A stretch of DNA of 64,000 bases from Candidatus Stoquefichus sp. SB1 (GTDB lineage Bacteria; Bacillota_I; Bacilli_A; Erysipelotrichales; Coprobacillaceae). Below, one piece after another: positions 27,734 to 37,394 of this stretch. How positions within the stretch are numbered: the first letter of the stretch is position 1; each line of letters opens with the position of its first letter. Made by a program: the position numbers and the translations under genes. Location of the stretch: positions 1 to 64,000 of the forward strand of contig NZ_LN852694.1 in NCBI RefSeq assembly GCF_001244545.1, in the 5' to 3' direction. The notes under the pieces were generated by a model. The model saw nothing but the letters and a program-made list of their open reading frames with translations. It did not search any database and was not told the DNA's origin.

Positions 27734-28267
27734 TTATTTCCATTCGTTCATTTTTTGTTCAAGAAGATCATAGTTACAATATGCAAATTTGATATTTTTA
27801 GTTTTCTTTTGTTGACGAATAATACTTCTTGTTTTATTAAAGATGGTATTCTTCTTTTTCTTGCAGAATTCATATTCTTTGGCTAGTAAATCTCGATCTT
27901 TATGAGTTCGTATATCTATCTTATGGTAACATCCTTCAGCAACAGGTATTGCTTTTCTTAAATCTACTACAGATAATAACTTTTTTATTTCATCATTATC
28001 CATTCTTTTAATTATATCTTTCTTATGTACTTCTGATTCATTAATATTTTCATATATAACTAAATAATCGATTCCAGTATTTTTTAGTTTAAGATGTTTT
28101 GGTTTTGCTGAAGTTAAAGGAACAAAATATGGTATTGTGTCATTATAAATAATAGTACCTACATAAGGTTAATTCTCATAATCATGTCGTTCTTTATTGA
28201 AATATACTTCAGTATCAAAAGAGTGTAAATATTTAATATATTCTATATCAATTGTATAAAAATTCAT
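27734..28267 (-). pseudogene. ToxN/AbiQ-family type III toxin, one nonsense codon
   Basis: Read from the ATG at 28267-28265 the frame encodes 177 residues of a ToxN/AbiQ endoribonuclease: MNFYTIDIEYIKYLHSFD, then PYVGTIIYNDTIPYFVPLTS, then KPKHLKLKN, and a C-terminal helix ending LLEQKMNEWK. Only codon 33 is a stop (TAA, 28171-28169), where a Lys codon AAA would give the expected N-K-P-Y-V-G. The downstream frame is perfectly preserved, so inactivation is recent or relieved in part of the population. An AAGGAAGTG site precedes the ATG. Upstream lie a promoter, a short RNA and a terminator, as in type III toxin-antitoxin loci. Confidence 0.82.
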
Positions 28268-34611: not shown

Positions 34612-34944
34612 ATAAACTTAGGAAAAAATATTTTAGAATTAAGAAAACAAATGCATTTATCACAAGAAAAGCTAGGAGAAAAGGTTGGAGTAACAAGACA
34701 GACTATTTCAAATTGAGAATTAGAACAAACAACCCCAGACACGCATCAATTAATTGCATTAGCAAAAGCTTTAAATGTAAGTATTGATACTCTTGTAGAT
34801 AATGATATTCATAATTTGCTGGAACAAAAAGTGAATCATGTAGAATTAGAAATTGTTAAGAACAACAAACTCTTAAAAATTTCAATAATTGTTTTAACGA
34901 TAATTGTTATTATCTTGATTCTAGCGTTTATCTCTTTGGCATAG
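34612..34944 (+). pseudogene. XRE-family regulator with C-terminal membrane anchor, broken
   Basis: The frame encodes a classic helix-turn-helix (LGKNILELRKQMHLSQEKLG, EKVGVTRQTISN) followed by a linker and one membrane segment (ISIIVLTIIVIILILAFI). The invariant Trp after ISN is a TGA stop (34714-34716) and the start codon appears mutated (ATA at 34612). About 110 codons in total, otherwise clean, so decay is recent. A shorter relative remains near 42390. Confidence 0.75.
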
Positions 34945-35483: not shown

Positions 35484-35511
35484 TTGAAAAATATATTTAC
35501 TTCCATATTAG
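35484..35511 (+). promoter_or_regulatory. Promoter of type III antitoxin repeats
   Basis: TTGAAA (35484-35489), 16-bp spacer and TATTAG (35506-35511). The start site would fall near 35518, just ahead of the first repeat. Confidence 0.55.
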
Positions 35512-35525
35512 AAATATGTATTAAA

Positions 35526-35593
35526 AAATCGGAGGACCATAGCCTGAGTTGGAACTACTAAATCGGAGAACCATAGCCTAAGTTGGATGAAAC
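35526..35593 (+). ncRNA. Type III antitoxin RNA: two tandem 34-nt repeats
   Basis: Two direct repeats with a 34-nt period start at 35526 and 35560. Both begin AAATCGGAG and share ACCATAGCCT and AGTTGGA. Characterised ToxI-type antitoxins consist of tandem repeats of about 34-36 nt that fold into pseudoknots and are cut by the toxin at A-rich junctions; the AAAT junction here fits. A terminator and then a ToxN-like gene follow, the canonical order. Confidence 0.75.
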
Positions 35594-35600
35594 AAATTAT

Positions 35601-35636
35601 AAACAGGGATGAAGCATTTAGGCTTTCCCTGTTTTT
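35601..35636 (+). terminator. Attenuating terminator between antitoxin repeats and toxin
   Basis: AAACAGGG (35601-35608) pairs with CCCTGTTT (35627-35634), with an inner AAGC/GCTT pair, followed by TTTTC. It would set the excess of antitoxin RNA over toxin mRNA. Confidence 0.8.
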
Positions 35637-35668
35637 CATTATATATAGATAAAAGGAGAAGTAAGAAT

Positions 35669-36307
35669 ATGAAAAATCCTGAGTATTTAGCATATGTTTA
35701 CTCTCTAGATAATAATATAGTAAATACAAAAAATACAATAGGGATTGCAATTCGGTTGAATGAGATGATTTATTATTTGCCTATTGATTCTGCTAATGAC
35801 TCTGATTATGACGAAAATCATAATTTGAGGAAAACAACACCAACTATTTTGCGCATGTTTGATATGAAAACACAAGAGTATTTAGGAAAATGCTTATTTT
35901 CAAATATGTTTGCAATTCCATATAAAGATTTGATTTCAGTTGAATTAAATGATTTTAAAGATTTTGAAGTCAAACTTGCAGAAAAGAAACTTGAATATTT
36001 AAGAACTCAAATGAATAGAATCATGAAATCAGCCGATAGACTTTATAATCAAAAAAAGAAAAGATATAACCAAGGATATTTACGTGTAACTGTCGATTTT
36101 CAAAAATTAGAAATCGCATCACAGAATTGGAAAATAGATAAGTACGGGAAACACTATAATCGTTTTCCAGATTCTCAGTATTTTTTAACAAATCCAAATA
36201 CAGAAGGAATTACTGAATATTTTCTAATGAATAAACATAAGAAAATTGCAAAGATAATGTATGATAATTCAAAACAAACTGTAGCAAAAATAGTTGTGAG
36301 TTATTAG
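35669..36307 (+). CDS. ToxN/AbiQ-like type III toxin, C-terminus run into the kinase gene
   Basis: 212 residues; the start at 35669 has AAAAGGAG upstream. The first about 150 residues have the ToxN layout: IGIAIRLNEMIYYLPIDSA, then CLFSNMFAIPYKDL, a helix ending ADRLYNQKKKRYNQG, and a last strand-helix VTVDFQKLEIASQNW that is a natural C-terminus. Beyond it the frame continues into MNKHKKIAKIMYDN, the N-terminus of the HipA-like protein, so the toxin stop has been lost or shifted. A TAA overlapping that ATG exists in another frame (36225-36227). Endoribonuclease activity is inferred from family and context. Confidence 0.65.
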   Translation: MKNPEYLAYVYSLDNNIVNTKNTIGIAIRLNEMIYYLPIDSANDSDYDENHNLRKTTPTILRMFDMKTQEYLGKCLFSNMFAIPYKDLISVELNDFKDFEVKLAEKKLEYLRTQMNRIMKSADRLYNQKKKRYNQGYLRVTVDFQKLEIASQNWKIDKYGKHYNRFPDSQYFLTNPNTEGITEYFLMNKHKKIAKIMYDNSKQTVAKIVVSY

Positions 36308-37394
36308 AGATTGAATATACTCCTCTAGAATGCTTCTCTCATGGGAATATAACTGTTACAGGAATTACAGAGTGGTTTAGAGGCCGAGGTATACCAGCGT
36401 GGAGAGATGGGTTAGATGACTTCCTAGATAATATGGGCATTCAAAATAAAGATATTTTATTAAATAAAGCATTTGGCCTATCAGTGTCTGACCAATATTG
36501 GATGAACCCAACTCATATAATTATGGATTGGAAAGATATTAATTTCTTTGAAAATGATTTCAATAGTTCTGATTATGAAATTGCAATATTTGAAAATAAG
36601 ATACTTGATCATAAACAAATAGATCTTTATTCTCCGAATAATACGTTTGACGGTATGCTAAAGAAAACATAGTTTGTTGGAGAAGATAGAAAACGATATA
36701 TGCTTAAAGGGTCATATAGAGAAAGCGGAATGGAACCTTTCAATGAGGTATTAGCAAGTATGATATGTGAGGTTGTTGGACTGGATCATGTAGAGTATAC
36801 GATTGAAGTAATACACGGTAAGGTGTTATCAAAGTATGAATGCTTTATCGATACAAATACAGAACTGTTATCAGCGTATTCAATATTGCACTATCATGAG
36901 GTGGATATAAGACCTATGAATCAATATGTGTATGAAAGTTATGTAAAGATTTTAAAATCTAAAGGATTAGAAAATGTTGAATCTTGTTTAGCTAAAATGT
37001 TTGTTCTTGATTATTTAATGGCAAATGTAGATAGACACCTTGGTAATTTTGGGATTATTAGAAATGTTGAAACATTGAAATGGGTAAAGATTGCACCTAA
37101 TTTTGATAGTGGTCAGGCATTGTTTTCACAAAAAAAGTATATGAAATGAATTTCAATAATGCCACTGGAAGATTTTTTAATAAAAACGATATTGATTTTG
37201 AAATTATTATCGAAAAAATAATTAAAAATATAGATTTTGATATTGATTTTAATGCTTTATATGATGTGGCTAAAAAATGGAAAGATATGCTGATTTCAAA
37301 TCAATATATATCTAAAATAAGTCCTGAAAGAATAGAAATAATTACTGACGGATTTAAACAAAGAGTTCGTAAATTAGAAAAAAATTTAAAATAG
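36227..37394 (+). pseudogene. HipA-like kinase, broken by two frameshifts and a nonsense codon
   Basis: Fragments in order give one roughly 385-residue protein. MNKHKKIAKIMYDN runs to about 36300; a frameshift follows, then LECFSHGNITVTGITEWFRG, WRDGLDDFLDN and LSVSDQYWMNP. A TAG at 36670-36672 stands where Trp is expected. Then come LKGSYRESGMEPFNEVLAS, the kinase core LMANVDRHLGNFGI and APNFDSGQALFS. A homopolymer frameshift at about 37130-37138 precedes the C-terminal helices. The HxxN and DSG motifs are those of HipA-like Ser/Thr kinases. It overlaps the ToxN-like gene, suggesting a joint system that has decayed. Confidence 0.75.

Follow-up and report, generated by a model that had tools for sequence, protein, structure and literature searches.

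A ToxN–kinase fusion gene, decayed in Candidatus Stoquefichus sp. SB1 and intact in several relatives, and its conserved repeat RNA

Architecture of the locus

The window analyzed here is a 64,000-nucleotide stretch of DNA from Candidatus Stoquefichus sp. SB1 (contig NZ_LN852694.1). Positions 35484–37394 contain two tandem repeats, a hairpin, and the remains of a coding region in which a ToxN/AbiQ-like domain is followed by a HipA/CtkA-like kinase:

35526..35587, + strand: proposed antitoxin RNA, two repeats at 34-nt spacing; the same element is present in all ten fusion loci
35595..35640, + strand: terminator-like hairpin between the RNA and the coding region; inverted repeat 35595–35609/35626–35640 with T residues after it
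35669..36160, + strand: ToxN/AbiQ-like domain; PF13958 63.4 bits, PADLOC AbiQ 74.4 bits, and alignments
36161..36304, + strand: conserved junction KYGKHYNRFPD...EYFLMNK, which runs on toward the kinase in the ToxN frame; alignment with intact fusions and three-frame translations
36304..37137, + strand: HipA/CtkA-like kinase body with the Gly-rich loop NNTFDGMLKK, RYMLKGS, NVDRHLGNFG, and NFDSGQ; a TAG lies inside
37138..37394, + strand: kinase C-terminal tail, past the second frame change; by eye, ORF 37146–37394 aligns with the C-terminal ends of intact fusions

The two repeats, at 35526–35553 and 35560–35587, share 28 matched nucleotides at 93% identity (repeat search) and form the single locus of this RNA in the window genome. 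The repeat core, written as RNA, is AAAUCGGAG(A/G)ACCAUAGCCU(G/A)AGUUGGA. Since the same repeat occurs at the same place in the loci of ten species, its presence in the window is not due to chance. The hairpin that follows was not flagged by a strict terminator scan of the window; the loci of relatives contain an equivalent hairpin with a T-run. The promoter included in the original prediction is doubtful: the window does not keep the TATGRTATAT-type −10 element seen in most relatives, and the region has no more promoter-like matches than chance would give (29 versus 30.3 expected).

The toxin frame, 35669–36304, matches the ToxN_toxin family PF13958 with an E value of 3.6e-17 (63.4 bits, cut-off 25), and alignment shows that the domain is missing approximately four N-terminal residues found in relatives. 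The kinase frame scores 26.7 bits against HipA_C, just under the cut-off of 30.5, and contains both of the motifs by which the kinase had been predicted, DRHLGNFG and NFDSG. Three lesions interrupt the coding region, as originally predicted: a frame change at approximately 36295–36306, visualized in three-frame translations; a TAG at 36670–36672, within the kinase body; and a second frame change in an A-run at approximately 37129–37137. There is a small chance that the frame change in the A-run is an assembly error; an error there would not touch the other two lesions. The window copy is a decayed ToxN–kinase fusion, and the system is dead in this genome.

Two further observations were made in the vicinity. 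Adjoining the fusion locus, an HTH-type regulator frame at 34620–34944 is cut by a TGA and constitutes a further pseudogene. Approximately 7 kb from the fusion, on the minus strand at 27740–28267, there is another ToxN homologue, a plain one that scores 124.9 bits; it has an in-frame TAA near its start and keeps the T-S-x-K motif.

Intact fusions and the repeat RNA in related genomes

In six relatives, gut bacteria allied to Thomasclavelia and including Thomasclavelia cocleata DSM 1551, the ToxN domain and the HipA-like kinase are encoded in one open frame of approximately 571–581 amino acids, and in four genomes of the same family the stop-to-stop open frame that spans both domains measures 620, 584, 574, and 606 codons. 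The joined reading frame is thus the natural state of the gene. The original prediction had described the toxin as reading into the kinase N terminus; the intact relatives, continuous across this point, identify it as a natural domain junction and not as damage. A separate kinase gene overlapping the toxin gene is likewise rejected because the two are one frame in relatives, whereas the predicted link between ToxN and the kinase is real: a search with the kinase shows that all of its close homologues sit with ToxN and repeats. Instead of the three-part system envisaged, the locus encodes a single two-domain polypeptide and an RNA. Distant homologues of the kinase (approximately 30–45% identical) mostly stand alone or have other N-terminal modules, and no repeats were found upstream of the stand-alone relatives.

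The fusions were collected by a peptide scan of the genomes of 85,000 species, a strict scan that distant fusions may escape. The hosts recovered are Thomasclavelia cocleata DSM 1551 (L045), an uncultured Eubacterium sp. (L046), a Bacillota MAG (L047), [Clostridium] spiroforme An567 (L048), Massilimicrobiota sp. An134 (L049), an Erysipelotrichales MAG (L050), and Faecalibacillus intestinalis (L051). One fusion missed by the scan, L085, was added by a census of ToxN (PF13958) in 316 genomes of the order and is known by PF13958 only, and one more copy, G019, is broken. In total, six fusions are intact (L045, L046, L047, L048, L050, and L085), which bears out the prediction of a fossil here with intact counterparts elsewhere, and four of ten are broken (the window, L049 with an early frame change, L051, and G019); all four broken copies keep the RNA. 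In the ToxN tree, the fusions form one clade (support 100/99), whose sister (98/92) is a group of plain ToxNs (L042, L043, and L074). The single fusion clade mixes two bacterial families, which suggests horizontal transfer. No fusion was found elsewhere in the class or the phylum in samples of approximately 390–395 genomes each, and searches for phage, plasmid, or viral carriage gave no match covering either the whole fusion or the RNA.

From the broken state of the window copy, one could suppose that unrelated ToxN and kinase pseudogenes had come to lie side by side by accident in a decaying genome. This is refuted: the fusion, together with its RNA, recurs in the genomes of nine other species and is intact in six of them.

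The layout is the same at every fusion locus: repeat, hairpin with T-run, and then the gene. The 34-nt repeat RNA is present at all ten loci, in two copies in nine and in one copy in G019. Together with the PF13958 match, this arrangement upholds the prediction of a type III architecture. The distribution of the RNA was surveyed by searching for the core GGAG(A/G)ACCANAGCCTNAGTTGG with up to two mismatches in the 316 genomes of the order, using a reversed pattern as the control. The signature was found in 16 of 316 genomes versus two control matches. These 16 comprise the ten fusion loci, five RNAs without a gene, and one match (G062) that lies in coding sequence and looks like a chance occurrence. 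No Rfam family matched the repeat RNA beyond a chance or marginal score. In an H-type pseudoknot formed by GG/CC with CCA/UGG, 96.7% of cells are paired with one compensatory change, a result that shuffles reach in 73 of 500 cases; because the repeat sequences are so conserved, this covariation adds almost nothing.

The five RNA-only loci (L106, 1470–1600; L108, 1480–1580; L113, approximately 1100–1170; L116, 1–130; and L120, 1490–1570) have no toxin gene, and most contain the hairpin terminator, which looks decayed in L113. L108 occupies the chromosomal site of L047 and L051, with flanks that are 90% identical upstream and 78–83% identical downstream; one repeat and the hairpin are kept, but no fusion gene remains. 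Decay or loss of the gene thus leaves the RNA in place, the pattern to be expected of an antitoxin RNA that shields its host cell from the protein. The RNA-only loci could be remnants or anti-addiction RNAs.

Alternatively, the repeats could act in cis, as a leader for transcriptional control with no antitoxin function, for which the hairpin between repeats and gene at every locus could be cited. The RNA-only loci keep repeat and hairpin with no gene to control, and type III loci normally have this very layout of repeats, then terminator, then toxin gene, and we consider a cis leader unlikely.

The ToxN and kinase domains

Fold and sequence comparisons identify both halves of the protein. For the T. 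cocleata fusion, the AlphaFold model has a mean pLDDT of 65.6; confidence is approximately 73–92 per block in the ToxN domain and low in the linker and in parts of the kinase, and coupling between RNA and kinase is seen in no structure. As predicted, the N-terminal domain adopts the ToxN fold, matching ToxN_Bt (4ATO), ToxN_Pa (2XD0), ToxN_Ec (7D8O), and AbiQ (4GLK) with Foldseek TMt values of 0.76–0.82, and sequence profiles of the fusion match AbiQ, ToxN, CtkA, and HipT. The ToxN domain, at 44% mean identity, has diverged further than the linker (61%) and the kinase (58%).

The active site of ToxN is lined by Lys33, Thr52, Ser53, and Lys55, and K33A, T52V, or K55A substitution abolishes the toxicity of E. 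coli ToxN (PMC8860590); the related AbiQ requires Ser51 (PMC5086642). In our alignment, 28 of 30 plain ToxNs from this order have the catalytic [TS]-S pair (the exceptions being Y-S and T-H), versus none of nine fusions, which read DS, DS, SL, NN, DS, EQ, DS, TD, and NN at this position. Lysine at the K55 position is found in 21 of 30 plain ToxNs versus one of nine fusions. The window domain has D-S at the catalytic pair and N at the K55 position. The sister plain ToxNs L042, L043, and L074, which lie behind classical-looking ToxI-like 37-nt repeats of at least three copies, retain S-S, and the loss of the catalytic motif in the fusions therefore looks derived. Five other residues of the domain, R33, D50, R65, N82, and Y88, are invariant in the six intact fusions and may mark a remodeled RNA-binding surface.

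The same residues bear on a second reading, in which the protein would be a toxin with two activities, the ToxN domain cleaving RNA and the kinase phosphorylating a target, with one RNA antitoxin restraining both. The intact ToxN fold is consistent with it, as are the five invariant residues, among which R33 occupies the K33 position (an Arg in some active ToxNs). Serine is retained at the S53/AbiQ-S51 position in four of nine fusions, and these may therefore have residual or altered RNase activity. The T52, S53, and K55 positions are, however, not conserved over the clade, with pairs such as N-N, E-Q, and T-D included, and it is here that T52V and K55A abolish the toxicity of E. coli ToxN and that AbiQ needs its Ser51. 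A doubly active toxin is accordingly rather unlikely in our estimation.

The kinase half, in contrast to the ToxN half, keeps its catalytic motifs: the Gly-rich loop, the catalytic DxxxxN, and the Mg-binding motif are all invariant in the six intact fusions (T328, S329, G331, K335, K349, E362, D457, H459, N462, and D482). The nearest solved structure is CtkA, both by profile (E 5e-11) and by fold (TMt 0.51–0.59); HipT (TMt 0.50) and HipA are also matched. Scores of fusions against Pfam HipA_C (25.5 and 23.8 bits) are under the cut-off of 30.5. The kinase also matches PADLOC PDC-M03A (E 5.5e-19 and 1.6e-21), which is itself only a candidate system and whose models cover the kinase only. Some distant relatives have an N-terminal HTH_17 or HTH_3 domain or are located after a HicB gene. 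Given these partners, the kinase family seems to pair with varied nucleic-acid-binding modules, a slot that ToxN would fill here. On a Selenomonas plasmid (L127, 1630–3143), a HicB-family antitoxin gene overlaps a kinase homologue by a few bases and may form a HicB–kinase pair with it.

Thr328 and Ser329, next to the Gly-rich loop, are at the place of autophosphorylation in HipA and HipT (PMC10627512), and their invariance would suit a regulatory, non-lethal kinase that switches RNA binding by phosphorylating itself or its ToxN partner domain. Stand-alone relatives of the kinase exist with no ToxN domain to regulate, and other Hip kinases related to it act as toxins or defense effectors (PMC12548924, PMC13092281); a purely regulatory role strikes us as improbable. 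From the motifs retained in each half, the best reading is that the ToxN domain now serves mainly as an RNA-binding sensor and the kinase as the effector of a type III-like system.

A proposed RNA-restrained kinase and its relation to known systems

We propose that the locus is what remains of a small mobile toxin–antitoxin cassette of the Erysipelotrichales, made up of an antitoxin RNA with two repeats, a terminator, and a single gene that joins a ToxN domain to a HipA/CtkA-type Ser/Thr kinase. The RNA repeats would bind the ToxN-derived domain, and the bound RNA would hold the fused kinase inactive. When the supply of this unstable RNA stops, whether through transcription shut-off by a phage or loss of the locus, the kinase would be freed to phosphorylate a target and arrest growth, resulting in abortive infection or addiction. 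We give this chain as a whole an even chance of being correct. Somewhat more tentative is the evolutionary proposition that a ToxN RNase has become a non-catalytic RNA-binding adaptor, such that a small repeat RNA is the antitoxin of a Hip-type kinase and the quantity sensed in phage defense; we place it a little below even.

Similar to ToxIN and AbiQ, the fusion loci have a tandem repeat RNA of approximately 34–37 nt, a hairpin, and a ToxN-fold protein downstream, and an H-type pseudoknot per repeat is plausible. They differ in that the toxin is joined to a kinase, T/S-S-x-K is not conserved, and the repeat is a different one in only two copies. Because the RNase signature is absent and an effector is fused, we keep the fusion apart from ordinary ToxIN members; its layout is that of a type III system, and its logic probably is as well.

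On the kinase side, the core motifs and the Ser/Thr by the Gly-rich loop are shared with HipA and HipT of the hipBA and hipBST systems, and HipT structures are matched by both profile and fold. A survey of Hip kinases describes protein antitoxins and HTH, HipS, or HIRAN domains, and neither ToxN nor RNA (PMC8262856). In place of a protein antitoxin, the fusion has a repeat RNA and a ToxN domain, and its HipA_C score is below the cut-off; no HipB- or HipS-like partner was recognizable, by reading, among the neighboring ORFs of L045, L046, and L050. CtkA, a kinase of H. pylori (PDB 3AKJ, 3AKK, and 3AKL), contains no ToxN domain and has no repeat RNA. The HipAD system (DS-6, PDC-M66), a HipA-like kinase with a DUF3037 protein, likewise uses a Hip-type kinase as its defense effector, one that is related to the fusion kinase and has experimental support (PMC12548924, PMC13092281), but there the DUF3037 protein is the antitoxin. 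No published ToxN–Hip-kinase fusion was found in a literature search that covered journal articles and, among subscription journals, a minority of titles.

To our knowledge, every type III toxin described to date is an endoribonuclease, and the Hip-type kinases on record are held in check by proteins or protein domains. If the proposed mechanism is true, the fusion would be an RNA-inhibited Hip-type kinase. Its architecture joins an RNA antitoxin with a protein kinase and so makes both RNA control of a kinase and the recycling of a toxin fold as the RNA sensor of another effector directly testable. With its RNA-only remnants, the conserved RNA also offers a clear natural case in which a toxin gene has disappeared ahead of the proposed antitoxin.

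The ToxN domain is also found in other extended proteins. ToxN homologues of approximately 320–365 amino acids with C-terminal extensions are present in L068, L071, L072, and L079; the extensions in L068 and L079 matched no Pfam family. A different ToxN fusion, with an ArdC N-terminal domain and a zincin metallopeptidase (Pfam), is encoded on the minus strand of L082 (2377–3942, genome G185), where it adjoins genes resembling those of conjugative elements.
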